Origin: Companilactobacillus tucceti DSM 20183 | Lineage (GTDB): Bacteria; Bacillota; Bacilli; Lactobacillales; Lactobacillaceae | Direction of reading: 5' to 3' | DNA length: 64,000 bases | Assembly (NCBI RefSeq): GCF_001434665.1 | Contig: NZ_AZDG01000005.1 | Span: 31,312 to 95,311 of the forward strand | Shown here: piece by piece, positions 33,848 through 59,782 of the stretch | How positions within the stretch are numbered: the first letter of the stretch is position 1 | How the letters are laid out: each line of letters begins with the position of its first letter | Program-made: the position numbers and the translations under genes | Notes under the pieces: generated by a model | What the model saw: only the letters and a program-made list of their open reading frames with translations | The model's database searches: none | What the model was told of the DNA's origin: nothing

Positions 33848-33969
33848 TAGAGTGTAATAAAAGTCGGTCTGCCACCGGAACATAACGTAGAATCACAAAT
33901 GATTGGTACCATCAATCGTTTGTGATTCTGCATTATGTGGAGGTTATAGCCTTTTATTACACATTTAGG
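33848..33969 (+). repeat. Palindromic intergenic repeat, subfamily A, copy A2
   Basis: About 122 bases from GAGTGTAATAAAAG to ACACATTTAG with the conserved landmarks CTGCCACCGGA, core GATTGGTACCATCAATC and GGAGGTTATAGCC. It lies between fetA and the B1 repeat; no plus-strand gene precedes it, so here the element is not in a sense 3' UTR. Confidence 0.85.
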
Positions 33970-33971
33970 AT

Positions 33972-34138
33972 AAAAAAAAGACCGCGACAAAACTATTTTT
34001 CCCTTAAACATGCAGCATAAACGTGGAACAAAACATAACTTTTTCCGCTTAAATCAAACAAGCTCATCAATCCAAAATCGGATTGATGAGCTTGTTTATT
34101 TTAATGCTCGAAAGCTGAACATGTTTTGTCCCACTCTC
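33972..34138 (-). repeat. Palindromic intergenic repeat, subfamily B, copy B1
   Basis: Read on the minus strand it starts GAGAGTGGGACAAAACATG 8 bases after the NlpC/P60 stop codon. It continues with TTTCGAGCATTAA, a 18-bp hairpin (arms CAAGCTCATCAATCC / GGATTGATGAGCTTG, loop GATTTT), TTTAAGCGGAAAAAG, the closing arm ATGTTTTGT, CACGTTTATGCTGCATG and a final U run. The last U tract could terminate transcription. Confidence 0.88.
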
Positions 34139-34146
34139 AAATCAAT

Positions 34147-35649
34147 TTATGCGAATACTCGTTTAACACCAACGATTGTACCTTTACCACTATAAATTCC
34201 TGAAGTACCTACATAAGGTCCCCATGAATCTATCATTGTATTAGCATCTAGCAAAATACCAACATGCCATACAATGCCAGTTGAAGGGTCAGCGAAGAAA
34301 ATCAAATCTCCTCTTTGACGATCATTAAAGTTAACTGGGTGAATTCTATTATCTGTATAAAGCAAACGTGAATTCCATTCGTTACCAGGTTGTGCATGTT
34401 GAATAGCAGTTACAGGTGATGGATTAACCCCTGAAGCATAAAGTGCTTGAACAACTAATCCTGAACAATCAACACCATATTCTGGTGAACTAGCTGCACC
34501 TGATATCCATGGTTGACCAACATATTTATAAGCTTGGTTTATCATAGCTTCAATATGATCTGAACGTGTACTCAATGTATTAGTTTGTAGAGGTGCAACA
34601 TATGAGTCAATACCATACCATGAACTTTCTGAGAATCCCATAGCAGTCCATGTTGCTAAGTTAACAATTCCTGTCACAGGAAGACCATGATTTGCTTGGA
34701 AATTCTTTACATAATATGTAGTAGTTGAATCATAAATGGTGTGTCTATTTGACTGACCAAAGTATCTTCTGACGAGCCAAACTTTGACACCTTCAACATC
34801 GTTATATAACTCGTATCCAACAGGTCCTTCTGGTTGAAGTTGGGCATTTTCTATTTGAAGCCAACCTTCTGGATTTTGGTAAGCAACATAAGGTGCTGCA
34901 TCATAGCCATTTACCCAAACGTTGTTACCGATTTGATAATAAGTTAAGCCATCTAAATCATCTGTTCTATTATATTTCCACATTGAACCTGCTGCAAAAT
35001 TGGTACTACCTTCATTCTTGCTAAATCCTTGGTCGCCACGTCCATATGAAACGGCACCATTATCTTTAACTTTAACAATACCATCAGCATCGGCACCAAA
35101 TGTCAAAGTAACATCGCTTGAATTAGCATAGGCATCTGTACTTACACGATAGTAATTTTGAGAATTGAGAGATAATTTCTTATCTGTTCTCCATGGTGAA
35201 TTGGCTGACAATCCAAAATTGTCGATCATAGTTCCATCTTCACGATATAGACGAGTTATCTTATCAAAAGTTGTTACTACACCACCATTAACTGGTGTGA
35301 TGGTACCTTGATTATCAGCATTATTTTGTGTATCAGTTGCTGTATCAGATTGTGTTGCAGTAGCTTGAGTATTTACTTGTGTACCTTGTGTGTCTTGTGC
35401 ACCTACTTGAACACCTTGTTGTGCTTGTGTAGATGCATCATTACTATTAACATCAGCTGTTTGTTGATTACTTGCTGCTTGAGGTTGATCTTGTTTAGCC
35501 TGATCCAAAGCCTGATTATTATTTTGTGATTCAACTTGTACATTTGGTGTTGAATCATTTGTAGCATCTGCTTTGACGGTTGCTTGATTTGCACCTAATG
35601 CCATTAATAAAACAAAACTGCTCCATAAAAATACTTGACTCTTCTTCAT
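34147..35649 (-). CDS. Secreted NlpC/P60 peptidase with SLAP units and a PG-binding-like domain
   Basis: A 500-residue exported wall endopeptidase. Order: signal peptide (1-28), a Gln/Thr/Asn-rich low-complexity spacer to about 115, two SLAP-like units (about 116-255), a peptidoglycan-binding-1-like helix bundle (YYVKNFQANHGLPVTGIV, about 325-350), and a C-terminal NlpC/P60 domain with the catalytic Cys in YGVDCSGLVVQAL, the His in WHVGILLD. It would cut stem peptides (D-gamma-Glu to diamino acid). Twelve bases after the C39 gene, forming an operon. Confidence 0.88.
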   Translation of the reverse strand: MKKSQVFLWSSFVLLMALGANQATVKADATNDSTPNVQVESQNNNQALDQAKQDQPQAASNQQTADVNSNDASTQAQQGVQVGAQDTQGTQVNTQATATQSDTATDTQNNADNQGTITPVNGGVVTTFDKITRLYREDGTMIDNFGLSANSPWRTDKKLSLNSQNYYRVSTDAYANSSDVTLTFGADADGIVKVKDNGAVSYGRGDQGFSKNEGSTNFAAGSMWKYNRTDDLDGLTYYQIGNNVWVNGYDAAPYVAYQNPEGWLQIENAQLQPEGPVGYELYNDVEGVKVWLVRRYFGQSNRHTIYDSTTTYYVKNFQANHGLPVTGIVNLATWTAMGFSESSWYGIDSYVAPLQTNTLSTRSDHIEAMINQAYKYVGQPWISGAASSPEYGVDCSGLVVQALYASGVNPSPVTAIQHAQPGNEWNSRLLYTDNRIHPVNFNDRQRGDLIFFADPSTGIVWHVGILLDANTMIDSWGPYVGTSGIYSGKGTIVGVKRVFA

Positions 35650-35661
35650 TATTTTCCCCTT

Positions 35662-36942
35662 TTAATAACTTATTGCACGTCTATCTTGAGTATTCCAATT
35701 AGCAAGGAATTGGTTGATATCCATTTGCATAGGTTGATTTAACCAGCAATCATTGTAATAAATATAGTTGCTGTCATAACCAGTTACTGTTAAGGCATGA
35801 TATGGAAAACCATGTAAAGTATTCCATGTTACTACTGGATGACCAATGCTAATTTGATACTTGATGGCATCAAGTCCTTGACCAGTTAAGTTCTTAGCTG
35901 ATCCAGCATATTTTTCTACCAAACGCATTAGAGCTGGTGGAAAAATAGTAACACCGGTATTATCCCACGGTTGACCCATATATCCATAATTTGGATTTGA
36001 ACTTCTTGGCATCTCATATGCTAATTGCATTTTATTAACATTAGCACCTGCATATTGAAGCATCATTGTTACGGCAGTGATTTCACAACCATTTGGTAGT
36101 TCTGGACGTTGTGAGATCATTGGAACACCAGCAACCCAATTTGCTGCTGGATATGTACTATCATTTACAACTACTGAAGATTGAGGTAACCAAACGTTGT
36201 TACCAACTTCATACCAATATTCTCCACCGTTTGAAACGCGTTTATCTATTTTCCAAGCAGAATTTGGTGCAACAGTACTACCGGCATAAACCGCATTCTT
36301 ACCATATCCTCGAAATAGTTGAACATCACTATCATAAGTAACACTTGCAGTACCACTGTATTCTTTAACATTATTGTCAAAGTAGCCTGATGTTTCTTTT
36401 ACAAACTCATTAGTAGAAACACGATAGTAAATTGTTCCATCATTCCATGTACGCTTAATATCTGTCATCCAAGGAGTATTAGCACCTAAAGCACGATTAT
36501 CAACTTGTTGGCCATTCCCTTGATATAGATAAGCTGTAGAACCATTAACGTGAAAAATACCATCAATAGATTCATCACTATATTGACTTTGTTGAGTCGT
36601 GACATCTGAAGAATTATTCGTATCATTTGTTATTGGTTCAGATTGATTATTTTGACTTGTCTGAGTTATTTGTCCCTGTTGTGAGGTAACTGTTTGATTT
36701 TGATCATTGTCCCCAGAAGGTGCTTGATCATTAACGTTCCCCTCAGTCTTGATTTCATTGTTATTAATAGGAGTGGCTGAATTTGTTGATTCATTATTTG
36801 ATGGTTCGTTAGATGGTTCGTTAGTAGTAGAAACTGATTGTGTTTGACTTGCATCAATATCATCAGCATGAACTATTTCTGGAGTCATCAAGAAGACCGT
36901 TCCTAAACTAGCAGCTAAAATAAATTTACTTCTAATCCCCAT
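35662..36942 (-). CDS. Secreted C39-like cysteine peptidase with SLAP units
   Basis: A 426-residue exported protein: signal peptide (1-26), Asn/Thr/Gln-rich spacer to about 125, two SLAP units (about 130-265; YYRVSTNEFV and WYEVGNNVWL) and a C-terminal peptidase_C39_2 domain with catalytic Cys in LPNGCEITAVTMML, His in FPYHALTVTGYD and Asp/Asn in YYNDCW. Unlike bacteriocin-processing C39 enzymes it has no transporter fusion; wall or protein substrate unknown. AAAGGGGA before ATG. First gene of a two-gene operon with the NlpC/P60 protein. Confidence 0.85.
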   Translation of the reverse strand: MGIRSKFILAASLGTVFLMTPEIVHADDIDASQTQSVSTTNEPSNEPSNNESTNSATPINNNEIKTEGNVNDQAPSGDNDQNQTVTSQQGQITQTSQNNQSEPITNDTNNSSDVTTQQSQYSDESIDGIFHVNGSTAYLYQGNGQQVDNRALGANTPWMTDIKRTWNDGTIYYRVSTNEFVKETSGYFDNNVKEYSGTASVTYDSDVQLFRGYGKNAVYAGSTVAPNSAWKIDKRVSNGGEYWYEVGNNVWLPQSSVVVNDSTYPAANWVAGVPMISQRPELPNGCEITAVTMMLQYAGANVNKMQLAYEMPRSSNPNYGYMGQPWDNTGVTIFPPALMRLVEKYAGSAKNLTGQGLDAIKYQISIGHPVVTWNTLHGFPYHALTVTGYDSNYIYYNDCWLNQPMQMDINQFLANWNTQDRRAISY

Positions 36943-37120
36943 AATATTCCCCTTTCAATGCTCTCATTATCTATCAACTACGTTCTCGATTCAATAATTA
37001 TTTTGATTTTTAGAATGACCGTTTTACGATATCGATTTATAATGAAAATCTTTAAAAAAATAAATGATTAAGTCTTACATTAATTAGATTAAATTAAACT
37101 AATTTTATTTTAATTAAAGG

Positions 37121-37149
37121 TTGACATTTTATAATAAAGAGATTAAGTT
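37121..37149 (+). promoter_or_regulatory. Promoter of the hydratase-like gene leader
   Basis: TTGACA (37121-37126), 17-base spacer, TAAGTT (37144-37149) just upstream of the T-box leader. Confidence 0.55.
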
Positions 37150-37171
37150 AATATCATTCAAAAGAATAAAA

Positions 37172-37440
37172 AAAGACGTTGAACAGGAACTTGAAATACA
37201 AAATACTTCAGAAAGTTGTCGGTTGATGCGAGGCAATAGTATTGTATTTTCTATATCACCTGCCAGTCGTACTTCGAAATAGACTTCTAAATTAGAAAGT
37301 ACTGATTGCACTCATTATCGTGCTAGCAAATTGTTTACAGTTTGTTATAAAGGCTGCATTAGTAATAATGTAGCAAATAAAGGTGGTAACACGTTTCTAA
37401 CGTCCTTTGATGATTATTAATTCATCAAGGGATTTTTTTA
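37172..37440 (+). promoter_or_regulatory. T-box riboswitch, candidate isoleucine specifier
   Basis: A complete T-box leader. Stem I spans roughly 37178-37268, the conserved antiterminator bulge AGGTGGTAACACG is at 37381, and the competing terminator TCCTTTGATGA / TCATCAAGGGA plus seven U residues ends at 37439. The helix CAGG/CCTG below the specifier loop leaves ATC followed by A, pointing to Ile (AUC). The variable bulge base (UGGU) pairs with A73, as in tRNA-Ile. Uncharged tRNA would allow expression of the downstream hydratase-like gene. Confidence 0.8.
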
Positions 37441-37469
37441 TTCAATAAAAATAAGTGAGGTGAGTCTCT

Positions 37470-37580
37470 ATGGAATCAAATATTAGTGAAGGTCAGATTA
37501 AATCCCAGATTAAAATTCAGATTAGAAATTTAAAAACATTTTATGGAGGCTCCACTTATGAAAGAAAATACTGTAGTTAA
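37470..37580 (+). CDS. Short Ile-rich leader ORF overlapping the hydratase-like start
   Basis: A 36-codon frame beginning MESNISEGQIKSQIKIQIRN after a good GAGGTGA site (6 bases). Five of its first 18 residues are Ile, all ATT, encoded by three near-direct repeats of CAGATTAAA. It runs 23 bases past the start of the hydratase-like gene in another frame, across that gene's ribosome binding site. It may be a leader peptide coupling translation to Ile supply, or the relic of a lost gene; function is unknown. Confidence 0.45.
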   Translation: MESNISEGQIKSQIKIQIRNLKTFYGGSTYERKYCS

Positions 37581-38370
37581 AGAAAACCTATTATCAAAGA
37601 ACGAGGAACAATTTGCTCAAGCACTATTTGATGCTTACAAATCTCAAGATCCACTAACTGAATCCGATTGGACAAATAATGTACCGGATGATCATTCAGC
37701 TTACCGAGTTCAAGATAAATTGATGCAATTAAAGAATGCACCTGTTGGAGGATATAAAGTTTCTCTTACTAGCAAACAAACACAAGATATGTTCGATTCC
37801 ACAGAACCACTTTATGGCGCTCAACTAGCTGACCACTTCTTAAAGTCTCCGGCACAAGTTAAACTTAACGATTTGATGGAACCACTTGTAGAAGTCGAGT
37901 TAGTCTTTAGAGCTAAAGAAGATTTAAGTGAAAACGATAGCCTAACCGATTTATTAAATAAAACTACTGTTGCACCAGCACTTGAGGTTCCCGATTCAAG
38001 ATTCAAGGATTGGTTCCCAAGTCTTTCCAAATATATGGTTATGTCAGATGCTGCCGTAGGTGGACTAGTCGTTTATGGTGAAGAATTTGACACCAATTTA
38101 TTTAAAAATGTCGAAGCCTTAGAGAATGTCAATTGCACTTTATACCATGATAATGAAGAACTTAAGTCAGGCAAATCAACTGAAGTATTAGGCAATCCTT
38201 TAAAATCTCTCAAATGGCTTGTAGATAAGTTGGCCTTACAAGGAAAGCAATTAATGAAAGACCAACGTGTATCATCAGGAACATTCGTTTTACCACCATC
38301 ACTTACAAGAGGAAATTGGCAAGCAAAATTCGATAATGGATTAGGCGATGTTTCCTTAAATGTTCAATAA
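37558..38370 (+). CDS. 2-keto-4-pentenoate hydratase-like (FAH superfamily) protein
   Basis: A 270-residue protein of the MhpD/DmpE hydratase group: AYRVQDKLMQL, GGYKVSLTSKQTQ, YGAQLADHFL, EPLVEVELVFRAKEDL (metal ligands Glu), and a C-terminal GTFVLPPSLTRGNWQ. Classical members hydrate 2-oxopent-4-enoate in aromatic breakdown, a pathway not expected here, so the substrate is unknown. The ATG at 37558 follows GGAGG by 8 bases; the ATG at 37543 overlaps that site. The T-box upstream ties it to amino-acid (probably Ile) limitation. Confidence 0.75.
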   Translation: MKENTVVKENLLSKNEEQFAQALFDAYKSQDPLTESDWTNNVPDDHSAYRVQDKLMQLKNAPVGGYKVSLTSKQTQDMFDSTEPLYGAQLADHFLKSPAQVKLNDLMEPLVEVELVFRAKEDLSENDSLTDLLNKTTVAPALEVPDSRFKDWFPSLSKYMVMSDAAVGGLVVYGEEFDTNLFKNVEALENVNCTLYHDNEELKSGKSTEVLGNPLKSLKWLVDKLALQGKQLMKDQRVSSGTFVLPPSLTRGNWQAKFDNGLGDVSLNVQ

Positions 38371-38448
38371 TCATTTGCGCGTCTAGATCAACTCTCCTAC
38401 ATAACAAACCTATTCTAGGCGCGTAAAAAAACTCCTTATTAGATCAAC

Positions 38449-38490
38449 AAAAAAGCAGTTATTCGTATCTCGGCGAATAACTGCTTTTTT
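38449..38490. terminator. Bidirectional terminator
   Basis: Stem AAAAAGCAGTTATTCG / CGAATAACTGCTTTTT between the convergent hydratase-like and DUF4811 genes. Confidence 0.88.
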
Positions 38491-38517
38491 AATTTCTACT
38501 ATTATATATTAGTTAAA

Positions 38518-39249
38518 TTAGTTATCTTCAGTAATCTCTTCAACTAATTTTTCCATAGCTTGTGCTTTAAAAGCCTTCGTAGCTTTTTCTTGCACTTGCT
38601 TTTGTTCAGAAGGTGTCATCGAAGGATCTTCTTGCATAGCTTTCATGACGGCAGCTTTTACATAAGCTGCTCCCTCTGATTTCATTTGAGCTTTAAACGA
38701 CTTACTCTTAGTTTTTTTATCCAATTCTTTAGCCTGGTTGGTTGTTAATACTAGCCAATCTTTTCCAACCTTAAAAGTATTGGTTTGCTTAATAAATTCT
38801 TTGTTATTATCTGAAATACCAAACAAGAATGAATAAAAATCGTTCTTATATTCCCAACGAGTTGTTTTTTGTGTCATAGTTGCTGCATCGTAGTTCCCTA
38901 CTTTAATGTTATTTTTGACATGTAGATCAACTTTTGTCGTTTGAGGTTTCTTATTGTTGGCTGTTTCAGGCGTTCTATAAATATAGATATTTTCTTTGCC
39001 CTTAGTACCAAGGTTTTTATAAAGTAATACTTTAGAACCTTTATTAACTGTTTGAATCTGTTCAGTTTTTGATTCTGTAACTTTTTTCATACCAAAATGA
39101 TTACTCTCATTTGCTACTAACAAAACAATGCTTAATATGAATAGTGCGATGAAAGTAAATGATAATGAATATCCAACTTTTTTATTTTGTAAGAAAACGG
39201 CAAAATAATAAGCTAGAGCTGCACAAATAATTATTGAAATAATAACCAT
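38518..39249 (-). CDS. DUF4811 membrane-anchored protein
   Basis: A 243-residue protein with two N-terminal hydrophobic segments (about 2-20 and 27-46), then an extracytoplasmic beta-rich region and a charged, Lys/Gln-rich helical tail. It matches the DUF4811 family that in lactic acid bacteria accompanies DHA2 exporters. Its ATG overlaps the exporter stop codon (TAATG), so it is translated with the pump and may be an accessory part. Function unproven. Confidence 0.8.
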   Translation of the reverse strand: MVIISIIICAALAYYFAVFLQNKKVGYSLSFTFIALFILSIVLLVANESNHFGMKKVTESKTEQIQTVNKGSKVLLYKNLGTKGKENIYIYRTPETANNKKPQTTKVDLHVKNNIKVGNYDAATMTQKTTRWEYKNDFYSFLFGISDNNKEFIKQTNTFKVGKDWLVLTTNQAKELDKKTKSKSFKAQMKSEGAAYVKAAVMKAMQEDPSMTPSEQKQVQEKATKAFKAQAMEKLVEEITEDN

Positions 39250-40745
39250 TACTTATCACCTGCACTTTCATTTAAATCTTTCATATTAATTTCTTTGGAT
39301 TTAGAACTGTTATTAACCATAAATGTAATTCCAAAAGCAATCAAACAGAACAAGATAGCGACCATAAAGGCGGCATGATAACCACCCAATGTAGCATTAA
39401 AGAAATCATCTTTGTATTGAAGTGGTGACTTAACTAATAATGAATGACTTGGTTTGGTATTGTTTGTTACATTAGTTAGAACACTAACTAAAATAGCTGT
39501 ACCCATTGAACTGAATACCTGACGAACAGTGTTATTAACAGCTGTACCATGACTCATCAAATCAAATGGCAATGAATTCATACCATCAGTTGTAACTGGC
39601 ATCAAGACCATTGAGATACCAAACATACGAACCATATACAAAACAACAATATCAATAACTGGTGTTGTTTTAGTTAAAAACAAGAATGGAATTGTTCCGG
39701 CGGTTAACAAGAACATACCCATACGAGCCAAGTCCTTTGGACCAAATCTATCAAAAGCACGTCCAGTGATAGGACTCATGATACCAATTAAAATAGCACC
39801 TGGTAAAAGTGTTAATCCTGAATGAAAAGCACTCATACCTTTAACAATTTGAAGATACAATGGCAAGATCATTTCAACGCCGACCATAGCCATATTTGTT
39901 ACAGATGACAAAGCTGCGGCAACAGAGAATTTTTTAACTGTGAAAACACGTAATTCCAAGAATGGTGTTTCCATTTTCAATTGACGGTAACCGAATAATA
40001 GAATGACAATAACTCCACCTATAATAGTTGAAAGTACAATTGGTGAACCCCAACCATCATCACCAACAGAACTGAATCCATAAAGCACTGATCCAAATCC
40101 TACGGTTGATAAAATAAGTGATAATATATCCAATTTTGTACGCTTAGTATTAATTACAGGACGCATAAAAATAAAAGCTAGAATAAGAACGATTACAACA
40201 ATAGGAATAATCATTCCAAAAAGATCTCTCCATGAAAAGTTATCAATGATCCAACCTGATAATGTAGGACCAATAGCTGGTGCAAGACCGATAACTAATC
40301 CACCAAGTCCCATGGCTGTACCACGTTGGTTAGCTGGGAAAATCGATAGCATAACAACTTGCATCAAAGGCATTGTAATACCAACACCGACGGCTTGAAT
40401 CAAACGTCCAGCCAAAATAGTTCCAAAGTTTGGTGCCACAAAACACATAATTGTTCCAATTAAGAATGTTGACATAGCAATAATATAAAGCTTTTTAGTA
40501 CTAAAGTTATTACTTAACCAAGCAGTGACAGGAATCATAATACCGTTAACCATCAAAAATCCGGTTGTTAACCATTGAACGGCTGATGTAGTAACATCAA
40601 ATTCCTTCATCAAAGTTGGAAAAGCTGTTGTTAAAATTGTACCGTTTAAAACAGTACAAAAAGTACCAACCAATAGAACCAGAACCATTAGGTTACGGTT
40701 AAATGGCTTTCCATTTATATCCAAGTGCTCATTACTTGAACTCAT
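39249..40745 (-). CDS. MFS drug exporter, DHA2 (EmrB/QacA) family
   Basis: A 498-residue transporter with about 14 membrane segments. Motif A in loop 2-3 is replaced by WLSNNFSTKKLYIIAM, and motif C is GLVIGLAPAIGPTLSGWI, as in LmrB/EmrB proteins that export lipophilic drugs. Thirty-six bases after a MarR regulator and overlapping DUF4811, so the operon is marR-pump-DUF4811 and probably derepressed by a pump substrate. Confidence 0.88.
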   Translation of the reverse strand: MSSSNEHLDINGKPFNRNLMVLVLLVGTFCTVLNGTILTTAFPTLMKEFDVTTSAVQWLTTGFLMVNGIMIPVTAWLSNNFSTKKLYIIAMSTFLIGTIMCFVAPNFGTILAGRLIQAVGVGITMPLMQVVMLSIFPANQRGTAMGLGGLVIGLAPAIGPTLSGWIIDNFSWRDLFGMIIPIVVIVLILAFIFMRPVINTKRTKLDILSLILSTVGFGSVLYGFSSVGDDGWGSPIVLSTIIGGVIVILLFGYRQLKMETPFLELRVFTVKKFSVAAALSSVTNMAMVGVEMILPLYLQIVKGMSAFHSGLTLLPGAILIGIMSPITGRAFDRFGPKDLARMGMFLLTAGTIPFLFLTKTTPVIDIVVLYMVRMFGISMVLMPVTTDGMNSLPFDLMSHGTAVNNTVRQVFSSMGTAILVSVLTNVTNNTKPSHSLLVKSPLQYKDDFFNATLGGYHAAFMVAILFCLIAFGITFMVNNSSKSKEINMKDLNESAGDK

Positions 40746-40781
40746 AAAGCATTTCCTTCTTTCAATTTATATTAATTTTAA

Positions 40782-41219
40782 TTACTTATTGGGAATTTGA
40801 ACCCCATCGATATTTGCATAGACCTTAGTTAAAATATGTTCCAATTGACTTAATTCTTCATCTGTTAAGTTTGAATAAATCTCATCATTAGCATCTTTAA
40901 AGTCAGATCGAAGTCGTTTAACAAATTCAGCACCCGCTGAAGTAATCTGAACAATTTTTTTACGACGATTATCAGGATCAACTTCTCGTACAACGAAATC
41001 CATCTTTTCCAATTTCTTCAAAGAACGAGCAATGATGGCTCCATCGAATAAAGTAATTTCTCCAATCGTCTCTTGATTGCAATTAGGATGTCGATTAACG
41101 ATCATCATTACCATGCTATCAACCATATTCATGTCAGTACCCTTAAGATATTGGCGAATAATACGCTTCTTTTGCATAATAAATCGAACCGCAAAACCAA
41201 TTAAATTATAATCATCCAT
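40782..41219 (-). CDS. MarR family transcriptional regulator
   Basis: A 145-residue winged-helix repressor: helix-turn-helix CNQETIGEITLFDGAIIARSLKKLE and wing VVREVDPDNRRKKIVQIT. It leads the operon with the DHA2 exporter and DUF4811, so it most likely autoregulates and represses the pump until a phenolic or other lipophilic ligand binds. GAGGTAAAAG upstream of ATG. Confidence 0.88.
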   Translation of the reverse strand: MDDYNLIGFAVRFIMQKKRIIRQYLKGTDMNMVDSMVMMIVNRHPNCNQETIGEITLFDGAIIARSLKKLEKMDFVVREVDPDNRRKKIVQITSAGAEFVKRLRSDFKDANDEIYSNLTDEELSQLEHILTKVYANIDGVQIPNK

Positions 41220-41261
41220 CTTTTACCTCACTAAAATAAAAATAAAGTTTTAAATAGCAAC

Positions 41262-41320: not shown

Positions 41321-41370
41321 GAAAACGTTTTTAATTTTTTAAACCGTTCCATCAAAAACACCTAGTTTTA

Positions 41371-46984: not shown

Positions 46985-47107
46985 GAGAGTGTGAAAAAAG
47001 GCGATCTGCCACCGGAGCATAGCCTAGAACCACGAATGATTGGTACCATCAATCATTTGTGGTTCTAGGCTATGTGGAAGTTGCAGCCTTTTTTTACACG
47101 TTTAGAC
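46985..47107 (+). repeat. Palindromic intergenic repeat, subfamily A, copy A3
   Basis: The best-paired A copy: GAGAGTGTGAAAAAAGGC pairs with GCCTTTTTTTACAC, and GAGCATAGCCTAGAACCAC with GTGGTTCTAGGCTATG around the core ATGATTGGTACCATCAATCAT. It lies between the terminator of the large surface protein gene and the CPBP-like gene, in the opposite orientation to both. Confidence 0.88.
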
Positions 47108-47109
47108 CA

Positions 47110-47149
47110 TAAAAGTTCTAAGTAAAGGAATTAATCTTTACTTAGAACT
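47110..47149 (-). terminator. Terminator after the anchored surface protein gene
   Basis: Stem AGTTCTAAGTAAAG / CTTTACTTAGAACT followed by UUUUAUGG on the minus strand. Confidence 0.75.
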
Positions 47150-50027: not shown

Positions 50028-50078
50028 GCAAAAAAAATATGACAAGCAATCCATTTTGGGATTACTTGCCATATTTAC
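50028..50078. terminator. Terminator after the VIT-family gene
   Basis: Stem AAATATG(A)CAAGCAATCC / GGGATTACTTGCCATATTT with a short loop and A/T runs. Confidence 0.65.
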
Positions 50079-50130
50079 TTTATTGATTGAAAGTTGACTA
50101 CTATTTAATCAACTATCTATAAATTATAGA

Positions 50131-52144: not shown

Positions 52145-52666
52145 ATGTTAATTTTAGATGAAAACAAAGCAAACACTGATATGAATAGCATTGAACGGAT
52201 TTATAAAGATAGCTTTTCAAAAAGCGAGCGACTACCTTTATGGCTTTTTAAATCCAGAGTAAAAAAAGATTTTGTCAGATTGTTCAGCATATACAATGAA
52301 TCACAATGGGTAGGATTCACCTACGTTATTAGAAATAAGGATACTGCTCTTATTTTATATTTAGCAATCGATTCAAAATTTCAAGGCCAAGGATTCGGTG
52401 GAAAAGCATTAGAACAATTGACTAGAACGTTCCACAAAAAACATATCTGCCTAATGATACCCTCTTCCAATGACAATAAATATCGTCAATTTTATTTAGA
52501 CCATAAATTTGAAAAGTCAAATTTCATGTTAAAAGAATCAAACAAACTATACGACGTAATGCAATTTGGAGACAAGCTAACTGGAATGGAATTGACTGAA
52601 GCTATTGATAAATTTAACGGGCCTATCTTGAAATTACGATCCAGAACACAGGTTATTAAATTGTAA
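52145..52666 (+). CDS. GNAT family N-acetyltransferase
   Basis: A 173-residue GNAT fold with acetyl-CoA loop SKFQGQGFGGKALEQL (R/QxxGxG/A). Substrate unknown. TTGGAGA upstream of ATG; a promoter-like region with AT-rich sequence precedes it. Its stop codon is followed after six bases by repeat B2. Confidence 0.82.
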   Translation: MLILDENKANTDMNSIERIYKDSFSKSERLPLWLFKSRVKKDFVRLFSIYNESQWVGFTYVIRNKDTALILYLAIDSKFQGQGFGGKALEQLTRTFHKKHICLMIPSSNDNKYRQFYLDHKFEKSNFMLKESNKLYDVMQFGDKLTGMELTEAIDKFNGPILKLRSRTQVIKL

Positions 52667-52672
52667 AAAAAA

Positions 52673-52834
52673 GAGAGTATACCGACACATGGTCAGCTTT
52701 CGAGCATTAAGGCAAACAAGCCCATCAATCCGATTTTGGATTGATGGACTTGTTTGTTTTAAGCGGAAAAAGCTATGTGTTGGCACACGTTTATGCTGCA
52801 TGTTTAAAGGAAATAATAGTTTTGTCCCAAACTC
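52673..52834 (+). repeat. Palindromic intergenic repeat, subfamily B, copy B2
   Basis: Begins GAGAGTATACCGACACATGG six bases after the GNAT stop, in sense. Same order as B1: TTTCGAGCATTAAGG, hairpin arms CAAGCCCATCAATCC / GGATTGATGGACTTG around GATTTT, TTTAAGCGGAAAAAGC, closing arm ATGTGTTGG, CACACGTTTATGCTGCATG. The outer stem changed on both sides relative to B1 (CCGACACAT with ATGTGTTGG versus ACAAAACAT with ATGTTTTGT), so pairing is preserved. Confidence 0.88.
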
Positions 52835-52857
52835 TTTTCTAGTTTCTGAACTTTTAT

Positions 52858-52898
52858 AGACTAAACGTGTGGCAAACCGTCTTTTGTAACACTCTCTT
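52858..52898 (-). repeat. Palindromic intergenic repeat, deleted subfamily A copy A4
   Basis: Read on the minus strand, GAGAGTGTTACAAAAGACGG joins directly to GTTTGCCACACGTTTAGTCT: both ends of the A element without the long central palindrome. It starts 9 bases after the stop codon of the DUF975 gene and lies beside B2, as A2 lies beside B1. Confidence 0.75.
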
Positions 52899-52907
52899 AA
52901 ATTTAAA

Positions 52908-53693
52908 TTACTTAGCTTCAGTTATCTTTTCATAAAAAGCAGCTAAAGTAAGTTGTTCATAAGGATGTAACCAAATGGATAATAATTCAGAAGTCATAAG
53001 GTTAAGAATTTCCCAGAAGAAAAATTCAATTCCTAGCAGTAACAATGAGAACTTATACCCTCTCATCAAACGTGAACTACCACTAAAACTTTCAAATGCT
53101 GATCTTATTGACCATTTCCCAGACTCATTCAATCTGTCTTTAAAAACTAAGAAAATCTGAGAAAACATCAACATAAACCAAATCCCTGGAATTATATAAA
53201 TGGCTAAACCAGCTTCCACAAAGACACCTAAAATAACTAACAACATTATTACAGGAAAGAAATACTGTGAACTGAATACTTGTAAGCTTCCCTTTAATGC
53301 ATTGATCTGTGAATCAGGGTTTCTCATATAATCAACCAAAGCATATGAGATTCCAATACAGATCATAAAAAAGAATAATGTAAATGCATATATAGCTAGA
53401 TTAGTAGCTGGAGTCAATGTCAAAACATACTTTGAAGCTGCTTCTTGATTTGTCGACATTGTCTGCATGATCTTTGTCAACTTCTCAGTGGCTTCTTGTG
53501 TGTTATTTAGATTAATACCCAAGTTTGAAAACCACTGTGTATAAATCTGAACCATAAAGTACATTCCGATAAAACGCATAATGATAGGAAAAATATTTAA
53601 AGCAATATTCCCCTTGATGTCTTTACGAAATGTTTGTCGCGCTTGTTTTCTAACTTCAATAAGTGAAACTCTTTTATAATTAGCGTTATTCAT
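52908..53693 (-). CDS. DUF975 family membrane protein
   Basis: A 261-residue integral membrane protein with about six hydrophobic segments. The N-terminal basic RVSLIEVRKQARQTFRKDIKGN and the loop VDYMRNPDSQINALKGSLQVFSSQYFFPVIMLLVILG are typical of DUF975, common in lactobacilli and of unknown function. AGGGATATTA before ATG. Followed by repeat A4. Confidence 0.82.
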   Translation of the reverse strand: MNNANYKRVSLIEVRKQARQTFRKDIKGNIALNIFPIIMRFIGMYFMVQIYTQWFSNLGINLNNTQEATEKLTKIMQTMSTNQEAASKYVLTLTPATNLAIYAFTLFFFMICIGISYALVDYMRNPDSQINALKGSLQVFSSQYFFPVIMLLVILGVFVEAGLAIYIIPGIWFMLMFSQIFLVFKDRLNESGKWSIRSAFESFSGSSRLMRGYKFSLLLLGIEFFFWEILNLMTSELLSIWLHPYEQLTLAAFYEKITEAK

Positions 53694-53746
53694 TAATATC
53701 CCTCACAATAACGCCATTATATCAAAACTTATCTTATGAAACTAAT

Positions 53747-54676
53747 TTACTGTACACGAATTGATCCGTCAGTGGCGTTTACTTTTAATAAATTTTCAGA
53801 ATCTGGACTTGATTGATAGCTATTACCTTTATTTTCACCGAAGTAGTGAACACTATTAGCATTGAAATCTACCCCGTCCATTTTACCTGACTCAGATCTA
53901 AAGGTACTTTCATCAGTTAAAATATAATCATTTGTTCCCTTTATCGTTACGACTTGCAAACGAACATGGCCATCATCCATATTAATCGTTCCGCCATTTA
54001 ATTTTGAATTTGCAACTTTTAAATTAGAATCGCTCATCTTAAATTTGTAGTTATTCAAAGTACTATTTTCAATATCGACAATAGAATCATCATCTGCTTC
54101 AAAATTAAGATTATTGATCGTAGAATTCTTTATCTTAACGTATCCATCATCAAAGAAGAACTTGCTTCCTTTTTGTTCAGTTACCGTCACGTTATCTAAG
54201 TATATTGCTGCATCGTTACCCCAATACTTATTAGACTTAGTAAATTTCTTAATGGTCAAATTTCTAAGTCTGACGTTACCCTCAGATAAATTGACATGCA
54301 TTCTTTGTAAGCTTTCTTTCTTAGGCACCGTTATGATTACACGTTCGCCTCTACCAGCCCAATCAACAGCTGCTTTTCGTTTATGACCAGTTACCGTTAA
54401 AGTATCTTTTTCTACAGAATATGTAGGCTCTTGTAATTTATCACCTGATATATGGATTGAATACTTATCACCTTTTTCAATTCTTACAGAGACATTCTTA
54501 CCATTAACTTTTACTTTAGAAAATGATTTCAAATTGTTTGTTTCATCAACTTTTTGAGAGATCTTAAATCCATGGTCCCAAACTATCATTTGCAAACCGC
54601 CGGTAAGATATCCACCAACAAAGAGAATGGCACCTAAAACTAATAAATAAAATCCAGTTACAAAATACTTACGCAT
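53747..54676 (-). CDS. DUF4097 beta-strand repeat protein, membrane anchored
   Basis: A 309-residue protein with one N-terminal membrane helix (about 8-28) and an extracellular beta-helix-like DUF4097 domain (LDNVTVTEQKG, IKNSTINNLNFEADDDSIVDIENSTLNNYKF, repeating). This is the DUF4097/LiaX-like adhesin-type sensor associated with envelope stress. Its ATG overlaps the DUF1700 stop, completing the padR-DUF1700-DUF4097 operon. It may sense or respond to membrane-active antibiotics; this is inference. Confidence 0.82.
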   Translation of the reverse strand: MRKYFVTGFYLLVLGAILFVGGYLTGGLQMIVWDHGFKISQKVDETNNLKSFSKVKVNGKNVSVRIEKGDKYSIHISGDKLQEPTYSVEKDTLTVTGHKRKAAVDWAGRGERVIITVPKKESLQRMHVNLSEGNVRLRNLTIKKFTKSNKYWGNDAAIYLDNVTVTEQKGSKFFFDDGYVKIKNSTINNLNFEADDDSIVDIENSTLNNYKFKMSDSNLKVANSKLNGGTINMDDGHVRLQVVTIKGTNDYILTDESTFRSESGKMDGVDFNANSVHYFGENKGNSYQSSPDSENLLKVNATDGSIRVQ

Positions 54677-55332
54677 TATTTATTTTCCCCTTTCATTGGT
54701 GTATTTCTACCATAAAGAAGTTTCTTACCTAACCATCTAAAGAAAATAACAACTAAGTCAAATACCCAGCGTATCGCCGCTATAACGATTGGAATGACAA
54801 AGAAGTTTAGTCCCAAAATAACCAGACCGCTACCGATATAAAGGGCTGACGTTGCCAATGATTCAAATATTACCGACACTCCCATGAAAATGGCTCCAAT
54901 ACCGATAATCACTGACAATGCTAGTAGGAATAAGAATAGTAATATGAAAAATATTCCTAATCCAAAGAATAATGCCAAACATACGACTAATAAAATTGCG
55001 ATCGGAATAGCAATCGGCGAAGCCATTAGAGCTAATAGTATCAAAACGATCATTCCAAGATTTTTCTTAAATCTTTCATTATCAGTAATTCGACCGTTAT
55101 CCACATGTTGATAATTATCTTCAGACATTTTAATTGAATAATCTGCCAAGACTTTTCTAGCTAATTTTTTGGGTAATCCCAATTCATTGATTATTGCATC
55201 AGTAGTAGTCAAATTTGCATCAATCAAATATTCTCGATAAAATTCCAAAACATCGTTTTGTTCTGATTCATCGAGTGGATGTAAATAAACTTTTAATTCA
55301 TCGATATATTCATTTACAGCTTTATTCTCCAT
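54676..55332 (-). CDS. DUF1700 (HAAS) membrane protein
   Basis: A 218-residue protein: cytosolic HAAS domain at the N-terminus (NEYIDELKVYLHPLDESEQNDVLEFYREYLIDA, 6-38), then four hydrophobic segments rich in Ile/Leu/Ala. HAAS proteins pair with PadR regulators and DUF4097 proteins in Firmicutes. It overlaps padR by 11 bases and DUF4097 by one, so the three are coupled. Confidence 0.83.
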   Translation of the reverse strand: MENKAVNEYIDELKVYLHPLDESEQNDVLEFYREYLIDANLTTTDAIINELGLPKKLARKVLADYSIKMSEDNYQHVDNGRITDNERFKKNLGMIVLILLALMASPIAIPIAILLVVCLALFFGLGIFFILLFLFLLALSVIIGIGAIFMGVSVIFESLATSALYIGSGLVILGLNFFVIPIVIAAIRWVFDLVVIFFRWLGKKLLYGRNTPMKGENK

Positions 55333-55639
55333 CTTTATCCTCCAAAATTTTATCAGTTGCTTCTTTTAGTTGTGCCCAATCTTCTTTAATAGAAATCAGT
55401 TGTTCTTCACCTAGTTCGGTTATCTTATAATATCGACGATTTCTACCTTCATAGGCTTGATCGTAAGTTTCTAACCAACCTTCTTTTTTTAGACGGCGCA
55501 AAATCGGATACATTGTTGATTCTGAAATTGGAAATACCTTTTGAACTTCCTTGGTTATCGTATAACCGTAGTAGTCTTCTCTAGTAAGCAGAGCTAAGAC
55601 ACTTCCCTCCAAAATCTCAGTTGAGGCCTGAATTGTCAT
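55322..55639 (-). CDS. PadR family transcriptional regulator
   Basis: A 105-residue winged-helix regulator: GSVLALLTREDYYGYTITKEVQ, ISESTMYPILRRLKKEGWLETY and RRYYKITELG, the PadR-s1 pattern. The ATG at 55639 (after GAGGAG) is preferred; 18 upstream codons cross its operator. A near-perfect palindrome upstream suggests autorepression of padR-DUF1700-DUF4097. Confidence 0.9.
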   Translation of the reverse strand: MTIQASTEILEGSVLALLTREDYYGYTITKEVQKVFPISESTMYPILRRLKKEGWLETYDQAYEGRNRRYYKITELGEEQLISIKEDWAQLKEATDKILEDKDGE

Positions 55640-55657
55640 GTTATCTCCTCTTTCTAT

Positions 55658-55680
55658 AATACTATACGACGTATAATATT
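55658..55680. promoter_or_regulatory. Candidate PadR operator
   Basis: Inverted repeat AATACTATAC - GAC - GTATAATATT (10-base arms, one mismatch) located 19 bases upstream of the padR start codon. PadR proteins bind such dyads over their own promoter. Confidence 0.6.
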
Positions 55681-55738
55681 GATTAGTTACCAATATAGTA
55701 TATATTTATAACAATGTCAATTGAATATAAAAATATTC

Positions 55739-55767
55739 TTGACATTATATATCTTAGGTCGTACTAT
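55739..55767 (+). promoter_or_regulatory. Promoter of the amino-acid ABC operon leader
   Basis: TTGACA (55739-55744), 17-base spacer, TACTAT (55762-55767), upstream of the T-box. Confidence 0.7.
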
Positions 55768-55789
55768 AGTTTCAACATTTAAACAGTAC

Positions 55790-56034
55790 AAAAACGATGA
55801 CAGAAGAGTAGTTACTTTATCTGGTTCAGAGAGTCGACGGTGGTGTGAGTCGATACAGTAAGTAATGAAACACATCTGTAAGTTAAATAATTGAATCAAG
55901 TAGGTTATTTCGGTGGCGCCGTTATCGCTGAAGTTATTGTAACTTCGTGAGCTTAGTATCGCAAGGTATTAAGAAGCCAGAGGTGGTACCGCGTTAAATC
56001 GCCCTCTTAGTCGTAAGACTGAGAGGGCTTTTTT
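55790..56034 (+). promoter_or_regulatory. T-box riboswitch, candidate histidine specifier, first module
   Basis: A full T-box: Stem I from about 55799 with S-turn AGTA opposite GAA, then A-CAC-A, so the specifier is CAC (His). The T-box AGGTGGTACCGCG is at 55981-55993 and the first terminator (GCCCTCTTAGTC / GACTGAGAGGGC plus six U) ends at 56034. Histidine transporters under His T-boxes are known in lactic acid bacteria. The bulge base U does not match C73, but tRNA-His C73 pairs with G-1, so that position is less informative. Confidence 0.8.
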
Positions 56035-56134
56035 GTTACAATAACTTCACGAGGTTAGTGTTGTGAAACACTAACGAACTGAGGTGGAACCACGTCGCGA
56101 CGTCCTCTAGCATTTTGCTAGAGGACTTTTTTTG
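56035..56134 (+). promoter_or_regulatory. Second T-box antiterminator/terminator module without Stem I
   Basis: A second T-box sequence AGGTGGAACCACG (56082-56094) and a second terminator (GTCCTCTAGCA / TGCTAGAGGAC plus seven U, 56102-56133) follow the first with only about 60 bases between. No Stem I or specifier fits there. Positions 55933-55997 and 56037-56094 are alignable, so the Stem III plus antiterminator part was duplicated. Confidence 0.8.
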
Positions 56135-56154
56135 TACAGTCAGGGGGAAAGATC

Positions 56155-56805
56155 ATGCACTATATTTTAGAAATACTACCTTCGCTATTAAGCGGAACAG
56201 TAATGACACTCAAAGTTTTCTTTTGGACTTTGGTTTGTTCATTACCACTAGGTGTCCTGGTTTCACTGGGACGGAGTTCAAAATTTAAACCACTAAGCTG
56301 GTTGGTTTCATTTTACATTTGGGTAATGCGTGGTACTCCATTACTACTACAACTTATTTTTGTATTCTATGGATTACCAAACATGCCATTCTTCCATATC
56401 GTATTTGAAAGATATGATGCAGCACTTTTTGCATTCATCTTAAATTACACAGCATACTTCGCTGAAATATTCCGTGGAGGATTTGGAGCCATTAGTAAAG
56501 GACAATTTGAAGGCGCTAAAGTTCTAGGATTGAACTATTGGCAAACGATTCGAAAGATAATCGTTCCACAAGTTTTAAAAATCGTCTTACCTTCAATTGG
56601 TAACGAAGTTATTAACCTAGTTAAGGATTCATCATTAGTATATGTAATTGGATTAGGTGATCTATTAAGAGCCGGAAACATTGCCAGCTCACGTGATGTT
56701 ACTTTAGTTCCATTATTATTAGTAGGTGTTATTTACCTATTATTAACACTTGTCTGCACTTGGGTTTTACGTATTTTAGAGAAACACTTCAGTTATTATC
56801 GTTAA
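56155..56805 (+). CDS. Amino-acid ABC transporter permease
   Basis: A 216-residue HisM/GlnP-type permease with five to six membrane segments. The EAA loop GQFEGAKVLGLNYWQTIRKIIVPQVLKIVLPSIGNE contacts the ATPase. AGGGGG before ATG. First gene of a three-gene importer (permease, ATPase, binding protein) behind the tandem T-box; histidine is the likely substrate from the specifier, not from the protein sequence. Confidence 0.92.
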   Translation: MHYILEILPSLLSGTVMTLKVFFWTLVCSLPLGVLVSLGRSSKFKPLSWLVSFYIWVMRGTPLLLQLIFVFYGLPNMPFFHIVFERYDAALFAFILNYTAYFAEIFRGGFGAISKGQFEGAKVLGLNYWQTIRKIIVPQVLKIVLPSIGNEVINLVKDSSLVYVIGLGDLLRAGNIASSRDVTLVPLLLVGVIYLLLTLVCTWVLRILEKHFSYYR

Positions 56806-56823
56806 GATTTGGGAGGAATTTTT

Positions 56824-57462
56824 ATGCTAAAGCTAGAAAATATTACAAAAAGTTTTGAAGGAACTACTATTTTAAATAATTTAAATCTTGAAGTTAAAGA
56901 CAACGCTATTCTTAGTGTTGTTGGCCCATCAGGTGCCGGTAAAACAACTTTACTACGTTGTATCGCTGGATTAGAAAAAGCCGATTCAGGTAAATTCACA
57001 CTAGATGGAAATCCATTTGATCCTGCCGATGAGTCTTCTAAAGAGCGTGTCGTCGGCGTAGTATTTCAAGATTTCAATCTTTTCCCCCATTTGTCCGTTC
57101 TTCAAAACGTTGCTTTAGCTCCAGAAATGGTTCTAAAACAAGATAAAAAGACTTCCGAAGCTGCTGCTAAAAAATTACTTGATCAATTGGAGTTAACTAA
57201 TCACGCAGATCAGTTTCCATTTGAATTATCAGGTGGTCAAAAACAACGTGTAGCCATTGCTCGTGCTTTGGCTATGCAACCAAAGATCCTTTGTTATGAT
57301 GAACCAACATCAGCACTTGACCCTAGTTTAAGAGATGCCGTTGCCGAATTGATCCTAGGTCTTAAAAAGACTGGCATCACTCAAATAGTCGTTACCCACG
57401 ATCCCGATTTTGCTAAAAAAATTGCCGATCAATTACTCGAAGTAAAACCTATCAATAAATAA
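56824..57462 (+). CDS. Amino-acid ABC transporter ATP-binding protein
   Basis: A 212-residue polar amino-acid importer ATPase: Walker A GPSGAGKTT, signature LSGGQKQRVAIARAL, Walker B ILCYDEPTSALDPSL. Start at ATG 56824 (MLKLENITKSF) after GGGAGG; a TTG at 56809 is rejected. It lies 18 bases after the permease. Confidence 0.93.
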   Translation: MLKLENITKSFEGTTILNNLNLEVKDNAILSVVGPSGAGKTTLLRCIAGLEKADSGKFTLDGNPFDPADESSKERVVGVVFQDFNLFPHLSVLQNVALAPEMVLKQDKKTSEAAAKKLLDQLELTNHADQFPFELSGGQKQRVAIARALAMQPKILCYDEPTSALDPSLRDAVAELILGLKKTGITQIVVTHDPDFAKKIADQLLEVKPINK

Positions 57463-57482
57463 CTATCAAGGGGGATTAAATT

Positions 57483-58343
57483 ATGAAAAAGAAAATATTT
57501 GCACTGATTGCCCTCTTGGCTTGTTTCGTTACCATTTTGAGTGGTTGTCAAAGTAGCACTAGTTCTGAATCAGTTGCCAAACAGGCTAACACTGTTGATA
57601 CTTGGTCACACATCAAAAAACGTGGTCGAGTTATCATTGGATTAGACGATACTTTTGTCCCAATGGGCTTTCGCAAAAAAAATGGTGACTTAGTTGGATA
57701 TGATATTGATTTAGCTAAAGCTGTTTTCAAACAATATGGTATTAAAGTTGATTTTCAACCAATTGATTGGAATATGAAGGAAACCGAATTGCGTAATCGT
57801 ACTATTGATTTAATTTGGAATGGTTATACGATTACTCCTGCTCGCCAAAAGCAAATCGCATTCTCACGTCCTTACATGGCTAACCGTCAAATTCTAGTTA
57901 CTAAAAAGAAGCAAAATATTAATAGTTTTGCCGGTATGAAAGATAAAACCTTAGGTGTACAAACCAGTTCATCTGGAGCAAGTTTACTAGATGAGCACCC
58001 TAAGATGTTGAAAGATTACATCAAAAACCAATCACCTGTTATGTATGATTCATTCAACAACGCACTAATGGATCTTGACGCTAACAGAATTCAAGGTTTG
58101 TTGATCGATAGTGTTTATGCTGGATATTACATCAAACACGAAAAAGATCCCGATTCTTATCAAATGACAACTGGCGGCTTCGATGGTGAAGATTTCGCTG
58201 TTGGTATGAGAAAAGGCGATAAAACTATGAAGAGAAAAATTGATAATGCTTTTCAAAATTTATCTAATAATGGACAATTAAAGAAGATAAATGAGAAATG
58301 GTTTGGTACTGATGATAATTCATTAGTTAAACCTGAAAAGTAG
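57483..58343 (+). CDS. Amino-acid ABC transporter substrate-binding lipoprotein
   Basis: A 286-residue extracellular solute-binding protein, family 3. Lipobox LSGC places the lipidated Cys at residue 22; the mature domain has RGRVIIGLDDTFVPMGFRKK, GYDIDLAKAVF and LRNRTIDLIWNGYTITPARQ, the amino-acid ligand pocket signature. Twenty bases after the ATPase gene, with GGGGGA upstream. Repeat B3 starts right after its stop. Confidence 0.92.
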   Translation: MKKKIFALIALLACFVTILSGCQSSTSSESVAKQANTVDTWSHIKKRGRVIIGLDDTFVPMGFRKKNGDLVGYDIDLAKAVFKQYGIKVDFQPIDWNMKETELRNRTIDLIWNGYTITPARQKQIAFSRPYMANRQILVTKKKQNINSFAGMKDKTLGVQTSSSGASLLDEHPKMLKDYIKNQSPVMYDSFNNALMDLDANRIQGLLIDSVYAGYYIKHEKDPDSYQMTTGGFDGEDFAVGMRKGDKTMKRKIDNAFQNLSNNGQLKKINEKWFGTDDNSLVKPEK

Positions 58344-58454
58344 GTTTGCAGATATCGAGTATTAAGGCAAATGGCACCAGTAATCCGATTTTGGATTGCT
58401 GGTGCCATTGCTTTAAGCGGAAAAAGATGTGTATCATTGCACATTTACGCCGCC
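58344..58454 (+). repeat. Palindromic intergenic repeat, subfamily B, copy B3
   Basis: Starts at the stop codon of the binding protein in sense. Conserved parts: TCGAGTATTAAGGCAAA, loop GATTTT, CTTTAAGCGGAAAAAG, GCACATTTA. Hairpin arms here are ATGGCACCAGTAATCC / GGATTGCTGGTGCCAT, unlike B1 and B2 but complementary (one G-U). The outermost left end is diverged. Confidence 0.85.
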
Positions 58455-58585
58455 TATTCAAGTCATAATCTTCTATTTAATTTAGTTCCTTATTATCATA
58501 AATCGTTTTTGATTTCACAATTGAAATGAGTTACTATGAAAATGGTTACATAGATAATTATCTATACGTTTTGGGGGGATTTATT

Positions 58586-59626
58586 TTGGAAAAAACTAGT
58601 CAGAAACTATCTATTTTCGATCGTTACATGACTTGGTGGATCATTCTAGCTATGGTCATTGGTGTTGCAATTGGTTACTTTTGGCCTAACACCGCAAATG
58701 TGATCAATAGCATGTCGATTGGAACTACTTCTATTCCAATTGCTATTGGACTGATTTTAATGATGTATCCACCATTAACTAAAGTTAAATATGAAGAAAT
58801 GGGACATGTCTTCAAAGATTGGAAGACACTTATTATTTCCCTATTTCAAAACTGGGTCTTAGGTCCGATAGTTATGTTTGCTTTAGCTGTTATCTTTTTA
58901 CATAACTATCCAAGTTATATGACTGGGCTTATCATGATCGGATTAGCAAGATGTATCGCCATGGTTATTGTCTGGAGTGAGTTAGCTCAAGCTGACGGAG
59001 AATATACTGCCGGATTAGTTGCTTTTAACGCTATCTTTCAAATTGTCTTTTATTCATTCTTTGCCTACTTATTTATAACCGTCATACCTGGTTGGTTGGG
59101 ACTACAAACACATGTCGTCAACGTACCAATGTCATCAATTGCAAAAAGTGTTGCCATTTATCTTGGCATCCCCTTTCTTGCAGGTATAACTTCTCACTAC
59201 GCTTTGATTCACTTCAAAGGTAAACAATGGTTTGAAAATGTTTATGTACCAAAGATAAGTCGAATAACTTTTTGGGCTTTGATTTTTACTATTATTGTAA
59301 TGTTCTCTGTTAAAGGTGAAAAAGTAGTTCAACTTCCTATTGATGTTGTTAGAATCGCTATTCCCCTATTACTATATTTCTTAATTATGTTCTTTATTTC
59401 ATTTGGAATGGCTCATCATCGTGGAACAAGATACCCAATCGCCGCTTCTCTATCACTAACAGCAGCAAGTAATAACTTCGAGCTTGCCATTGCCGTTGCC
59501 GTAAGTGTCTTTGGTATAAGCTCTGGTGAAGCCTTTACCGCTGTTATCGGTCCACTTGTGGAAGTTCCTGTATTACTTAGTTTAGTTAATGTTGCTTTGA
59601 AGTACCGTAATCGTTTTAAAAGATAA
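58586..59626 (+). CDS. ACR3-family arsenite (metalloid) exporter
   Basis: A 346-residue membrane protein with about ten hydrophobic segments of the ACR3 (bile/arsenite/riboflavin transporter) superfamily: [51 protein letters not shown] and [18 protein letters not shown]3 proteins usually carry a conserved Cys in the fourth helix and here ARCIAMV supplies it. Start set at TTG 58586 after GGGGGG, since the upstream ATG at 58526 lacks a site. No arsR or arsC is adjacent. Confidence 0.88.
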
Positions 59627-59656
59627 AGAGTTCAACAAAAAGCTTTTTTAAATATA

Positions 59657-59782
59657 CAGATTAAATGTGCGACAAAACATAGCTTTTTCCGCTTAAATCA
59701 AATAGTCCCAACAATCCAAAATCGGATTGCTGGGACTATTTGCCTTAATGCTCGAAAGCTGACCATGTTTTGTTACACTCTC
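59657..59782 (-). repeat. Palindromic intergenic repeat, subfamily B, copy B4
   Basis: On the minus strand GAGAGTGTAACAAAACATGG begins inside the TAG stop of the short SLAP gene. Then TTTCGAGCATTAAGG, hairpin arms AAATAGTCCCAGCAATCC / GGATTGTTGGGACTATTT around GATTTT, TTTAAGCGGAAAAAGC, ATGTTTTGT and CACATTTA. Arm sequence again differs from the other copies and remains paired. Confidence 0.88.

Follow-up and report, generated by a model that had tools for sequence, protein, structure and literature searches.

A family of long hairpins behind stop codons in Companilactobacillus: candidate RNA modules of 3′ untranslated regions with REP-like placement

Miniature inverted-repeat transposable elements (MITEs) and the Firmicutes repeats BOX, RUP and STAR are multi-copy, non-coding and intergenic, and their occupancy varies between species. 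Repetitive extragenic palindromic (REP) elements, which are linked to a Y1-type (RAYT) transposase, and bacterial interspersed mosaic elements (BIMEs) occur in Enterobacteria as many intergenic palindromic copies, often right past stop codons. A REP is a short palindrome of 20-40 bp with a conserved tag at one end (PMC3733652), and REPs at most 15 nt from a stop, 446 of 4,072 (about 11%) in E. coli, are reported to stall ribosomes (PMC12306157). The L17 downstream element (RF01708) is described in PMC2864571 as a structured RNA of possible 3′ untranslated regions (UTRs) of Lactobacillales, with many G-U pairs that mark its strand. Here we describe a family of longer hairpins in the genome of Companilactobacillus tucceti DSM 20183 (2.17 Mb, 51 contigs). 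The starting point was a stretch of 64,000 nt (contig NZ_AZDG01000005.1, positions 31,312 to 95,311), hereafter the window, for which a preliminary description, made from the sequence alone, had listed eight intergenic palindromes in two subfamilies, A1 to A4 and B1 to B4.

All eight were found where that description had placed them, as judged from the sequence, the folds and covariance-model matches, and six of them (A1, A2, A3, B1, B2 and B4) read and fold as complete hairpins. An element is a hairpin of about 134 nt made of an outer stem P1, a 4-nt bulge, a stem P2, an internal loop and a variable stem P3; with these three stems, two fixed internal loops and strong covariation it is unlike a REP of 20-40 nt. 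The ends noted earlier as common to the copies (GAGAGTG... and ...CACGTTTA) are real, and the base of P1, GAG-A-GUG / CAC-G-UUU, conserves its G.U pairs and its A.G mismatch. The fixed internal loop is GAGCAUUAA / UUAAGCGGA (GA/GGA with a bulged A). The sequence of P3 varies freely with its pairing kept. Copies from other genera share AGAGUG ... GGCGGUUAGCUNGCGAGCAUUAA, a variable hairpin, UUAAGCGGAANNAGCUGCC ... CACGUUUCG, and the unpaired internal loops are nearly invariant across genera, whereas the P3 cap AATCC-GATTTT-GGATT, previously taken as fixed, is nearly so in the own genome and not in other genera. A similar AATCC..GGATT tip is found on a stand-alone terminator that follows a tRNA gene (50029-50083, minus strand), and P3 may exchange with such free terminators. 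Two 91-nt copies in the relative G003 (L402:12664-12754, minus; L404:11976-12066, plus) have P1, P2 and the fixed loops with almost no P3, and may mark a minimal core.

Three covariance models were built: R1 from 24 B copies and R2 from 25 A copies of the own genome, and R3 from 20 copies that all come from other genera, with no A copy and none from Companilactobacillus. In the window, R3 scored B1, B2 and B4 at 107-118 bits, A1-A3 at 76-95, B3 at 46.5 and A4 at 20.6, so that it is strong on seven of the eight elements and weak on A4; beyond these it matches in the window solely A2 read on the opposite strand (28.4 bits) and the stand-alone terminator just mentioned (22.4 bits), which a terminator scan picked up as well. 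Since a model without A copies or copies of the genus matches both, A and B belong together, and the two subfamilies first described are one superfamily. Genome-wide, R1 gave at least 84 putative B sites (78 at 75 bits or more, 6 at 48-67 bits) and R2 at least 59 full A sites plus remnants. These numbers are lower bounds because just 150 of 1,581 (B) and 150 of 1,175 (A) first-look candidates were scored. Distinct forward sites were picked by hand from the match lists; eleven short or weak A matches (L226-L236) were set aside from the A count, as were four weaker B sites (L163-L166) and a mixed A/B place (C49:19760) from the table of contexts. The window's eight elements thus represent only a small part of a set that numbers 143 copies or more.

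The covariation claimed for the hairpin arms and the outer stem holds in the larger sets, where it was tested against shuffles as well as slid controls. Double compensatory changes affect 23 of 49 pairs among the 24 own B copies, with 97.3% of cells paired (36-45% in slid controls), 33 of 45 pairs in the alignment from other genera, with 98.0% of cells paired (31-46%), and 8 of 47 pairs in the own A copies, with 97.7% paired; the copies are related, so neither these changes nor the wobble counts below are independent events. (An alignment, also labelled "A3", holds the best 150 of 192 matches.) On the sense strand, G.U pairs exceed A.C pairs by 45:3 in other genera, 54:8 in A and 114:57 in B, counted in 21 matches from other genera (one being a second match in L261), 25 of 59 A copies and 81 of 84 B copies, with columns in which G.U or A.C is the most frequent pair set aside. 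A symmetric DNA process predicts equal numbers, and the excess therefore makes sense-strand RNA or single-stranded DNA the likely selected form. Of the folded RNA or cruciform first suggested, the strand bias argues against a double-stranded cruciform and for a fold of the sense strand, which may be RNA or single-stranded DNA.

The position of the copies follows gene 3′ ends, which in the scripted counts come from simple calling of open reading frames (at least 80 aa) and not from annotation. The gene upstream runs in sense for 123 of the 143 own copies, and 105 of them (67/84 B, 38/59 A) start between -17 and +20 nt of a sense stop, the A model beginning 8 nt ahead of GAG; for random intergenic points in the window the corresponding values are 43% and 5.6%. 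This differs from the roughly 11% of E. coli REPs that lie close to a stop (446/4,072; PMC12306157). Sense orientation also prevails among named relatives (56 of 64 copies) and in other genera (32 of 38), where 20 of 38 copies fall in the same range around a stop; the latter sample comprises 38 of the best-scoring copies from five genomes, some of these copies having also served to train R3, and omits two G034 loci. Other long G+C-rich repeats, distinct from the hairpin family, also lie right past stops (L350, L351 and L394 in G035 and G007; L396 and L401 in G016 and G017).

A simple scan for intrinsic terminators (a stem at or below -8 kcal/mol with a T-tract after it) points to a terminator-like coupling in both types. 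Among B copies, P3 itself is terminator-like in 69 of 84, a terminator lies downstream in 5 and neither was scored in 14; among A copies, 40 of 59 have a terminator downstream (34 of these at 33-60 nt), 4 have one inside and 17 have neither. Genes with B copies appear, from their sequence, to rely on P3 as their terminator. The Rho RNA-binding domain was not found in any of 36 genomes of the genus, in a search that was positive in 9 of 14 control genomes. In G025, G002 and G022, the element at a prs-like gene has a P3 that resembles a complete terminator. Derivation of P3 from captured host terminators was considered and is not general, because the P3 cap is nearly constant in the own genome.

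The family extends well beyond one species. By DNA similarity, B is present in 27 and A in 4 of 36 genomes of the genus, the own genome counted. A search of named genomes with an exact 18-base pattern yielded 70 stretches, of which 65 belong to Companilactobacillus (nantensis, baiquanensis, kedongensis, insicii, suantsaicola, halodurans and hulinensis) and 5 to unrelated organisms. At E <= 1e-10, R1 had matches in 96 of the 301 genomes in a family sample, spread over 14 of its 40 genera, and R3 gave 29 to 83 matches per genome in five genomes of other genera and 106 in the Companilactobacillus genome G034, with 150 candidates scored in each and one site possibly counted on both strands. Elsewhere in the order, outside the family, R3 also gives putative matches, the listed ones reaching 73.5 bits. 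The element L245 matches three Pediococcus damnosus plasmids, and in a plasmid of that species a copy begins where an annotated ABC gene ends. With Rfam 15 at gathering thresholds, no family lies over the elements in the whole window; matches elsewhere in it include two T-box leaders and one L31 ribosomal protein leader (37170-37410, 55788-56009, 6175-6207). In E-value mode, with six own loci and 13 others, the best match was to mir-7445, on both strands; its 46.1 bits fall short of the threshold of 79, and we judge it to be a chance match of a palindrome. We found no description of the element in the open-licence PubMed Central literature searched (including PMC2267715, PMC2864571 and PMC12306157).

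These observations suggest, with middling confidence, a family of 3′-UTR RNA modules with REP-like placement, tied to termination and spreading between gene ends. The element would be transcribed in sense with its host gene and would fold into a long hairpin that starts a few bases from the stop codon. In most own B copies, P3 and the U-rich strand next to it would serve as the only intrinsic terminator of the host gene; for most A copies this part would fall to the separate terminator that follows. The module would thereby fix the 3′ end of the mRNA and might shield it from 3′ exonucleases. Lying in reach of the terminating ribosome, it could also slow or stall ribosomes, as the REP hairpins close to stops do; the position fits the REP range, and both the protective and the stalling role are drawn from REP elements, for which PMC12306157 reports stalling. 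New copies would arise at new gene ends, and in the clearest case the element would have replaced a resident terminator stem between an A-tract and a T-tract. A covarying one-strand fold downstream of genes in sense is what a structured 3′-UTR RNA looks like, and the L17 downstream element offers a precedent in Lactobacillales with a G-U-marked strand; that RNA follows a single gene, that of ribosomal protein L17, whereas the present elements are dispersed and match no Rfam family above threshold. A bolder and rather unlikely extension is that of a transposable, family-wide module in bacteria without Rho, spreading by terminator swap, in which one protein or the ribosome would read both fixed loops in many transcripts, so that a 3′-end code would couple translation stop, termination and mRNA decay.

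Several findings weigh against the proposal of a 3′-UTR RNA module. A2, A3 and 38 of the 143 own copies lie outside the range from -17 to +20 nt around a sense stop. Coupling to a terminator is loose in other genera, where 9 of 38 copies have one inside (P3) and 13 of 38 one downstream, so that it differs by lineage. Of 83 control gene ends without a listed element the scan scored 38, which means that it often overlooks terminators. B copies show the least pronounced G.U bias, and such a bias would also arise in single-stranded DNA. The 3′ arms of P1 and P2 covary, though termination of B transcripts at P3 would mostly leave them untranscribed; read-through RNA or single-stranded DNA must therefore matter, which keeps a selfish element in play as a sizeable minority possibility. 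A quick change of occupancy, described below, also suits a dispensable or selfish element.

The elements of the window illustrate this variety. A1, a full A-type copy (17803..17935, minus; R3 83.6 bits), lies about 5 nt past the stop of the gene at 17939-19087 (minus), which we take from its protein to be prs, and the scan places an intrinsic terminator after it (17757..17788, minus). A2 (33848..33980, plus; 76.2 bits) and A3 (46985..47117, plus; 94.5 bits) are full A-type copies with no sense stop before them. A2 faces, 3′ to 3′, the full B-type B1 (34005..34138, minus; 116.8 bits), which begins 8 nt past the stop of 34147-35649 (minus); its terminator-like P3 (34059..34094, minus; -24.7 kcal/mol) has the U-rich strand next to it, and its 3′ tail (GTTTTGT...CTTTTTTTT; 33960..34004, minus) overlaps the end of A2 with its far end. 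This tail is complementary to the 5′ end of B1 itself, a complementarity missing in some B types. The idea that P1 and the B tail (GTTTTGTCCC) form a switch was rejected, as the tail does not track the 5′ arm in copies of the CCGACACATG and ATGATACACG types. B2, a full B-type copy (52673..52806, plus; 107.1 bits), starts 6 nt past the stop of 52145-52666 (plus), with a terminator-like P3 (52716..52753, plus; -21.3 kcal/mol) followed by TTGTTTTA and, as read from the sequence, a 3′ tail at 52807..52845 (plus). Close to it, A4 (52849..52896, minus; E 0.0024) is a 48-bp A remnant that keeps both ends without P2 and P3. B3 (58336..58460, plus) is a degenerate B copy whose P1 5′ arm is missing at the end of the gene 57483-58343 (plus), and B4, again a full B-type (59649..59782, minus; 118.2 bits) with a terminator-like P3 (59703..59738, minus; -25.4 kcal/mol), overlaps by one base the stop of 59782-60138 (minus). 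As first reported, six of the eight (A1, A4 and B1 to B4) thus overlap a sense stop or start about 0-9 nt from one; the exceptions are A2 and A3.

Comparison of these sites between species points to gain and loss. In G003, G016 and G017, the gene that precedes A1 (96-97% identity) is followed a few nt past its stop by a plain terminator; in the own genome, A1 and a new terminator sit between an A-tract and a T-tract similar, by eye, to those of the relatives. The A2/B1 and A3 sites are free of elements in the same three relatives, such empty sites being judged by eye. At the B2 site, G003 carries a version almost devoid of P3, and G016 and G017 have different sequence; at the B4 site, G016 has a plain terminator and G003, after the matching gene, a B element. 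Beside the prs-like gene, R3 elements occur at 10 of 30 loci drawn from 36 genomes, and G014 has there a reversed fragment seen by eye and unscored by R3. Downstream of the same gene in G013 (L345) lies a tandem element of three units by eye, of which R3 scores two places. Only 6 of 49 host proteins beside elements in named relatives match (at least 69% identity) any of 111 own host proteins. Occupancy therefore changes quickly, and the folded RNA and the mobile element that had been offered as alternatives may both be true, the fold being kept as the occupied sites change between close species.

This behaviour also speaks for reading the family as selfish DNA, MITE-like or single-stranded, whose hairpin a transposase or recombinase would recognise and insert at terminators, the fold serving movement and not the mRNA. 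By description only, multi-copy, non-coding, intergenic elements with species-variable occupancy resemble MITEs, BOX, RUP and STAR, and a sharp 5′ boundary, a conserved 3′ tail, remnants, tandem copies and P1 arms that stay paired even around a terminator-like P3 fit this reading, as would a G.U bias arising in single-stranded DNA. The ends are complementary. Inspection by eye of the sites of prs, A2/B1 and A3 showed no target duplication, which would be unlike those repeats, as would the lack of an identified partner insertion sequence in a search confined to Y1. The Y1 transposase domain (PF01797), matched in 18 of 36 genomes of the genus, was not found in the own genome, where partner insertion sequences of other kinds were not searched for, nor in the copy-rich G034, G024 and G013; this separates the elements from REPs and argues against that transposase as the driver here. 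A strict sense orientation past stops is, to our knowledge, not typical of MITEs. No match was found for A3 among plasmids, for B2 and the L253 element among plasmids and phages, or for two sequence patterns among viral contigs. On balance we regard a purely selfish element as possible and less probable than the RNA module.

An improbable simplification is that P3 alone works, as an ordinary strong intrinsic terminator, with its surroundings as passive relics spread by recombination. The terminator-like P3 of most B copies, the rarity of a terminator downstream of them and the failure to find Rho in the genus agree with it, and P3 of most B copies, like the hairpin after most A copies, does resemble such terminators. 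P1, P2 and the fixed loops, by contrast, belong to no terminator: the two stems covary and the loops are nearly invariant across genera, while P3, the sole part with a stable stem and U-tract, is not terminator-like in A copies and in most of those examined from other genera, and is almost absent from the two short G003 copies.

More doubtful still is a BIME-like DNA element, a cruciform or gyrase-binding site that would handle supercoils between convergent genes. Such a role would suit the copies that lie between convergent genes (51 of 84 B, 26 of 59 A) and the seven close A/B pairs among the loci compared, all arranged 3′ to 3′ (33848-34138; L043, L054, L055, L062, L065, L067), but a strand-specific wobble bias is unexpected of a double-stranded form, and other copies have a same-direction gene next (27 of 84 B, 16 of 59 A). 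One tandem A-B pair in the same direction lies at C9:37794-38068. Lastly, hairpin template switching (quasipalindrome correction), which would keep the arms identical without selection and would suit the mostly well paired, fast-varying P3 arms, is already disfavoured and very unlikely, since it predicts as many A.C as G.U pairs and leaves the nearly invariant unpaired loops and the conserved basal G.U pairs unexplained.

Taken together, the preliminary reading is partly borne out: covariation, the G.U bias and sense placement past stops speak strongly for selection that acts on a fold of the sense strand at the 3′ ends of genes, and further copies are present in related genomes. The family appears to be an uncatalogued structured RNA with dozens to more than 100 copies per genome in many lactobacilli. 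Should the element determine where mRNAs end or how ribosomes behave at stop codons, it would be a global layer of post-transcriptional control in a genus whose searched genomes yielded no Rho. The occupied and empty gene ends of these species form a natural series, which makes the function of REP-like palindromes directly testable.

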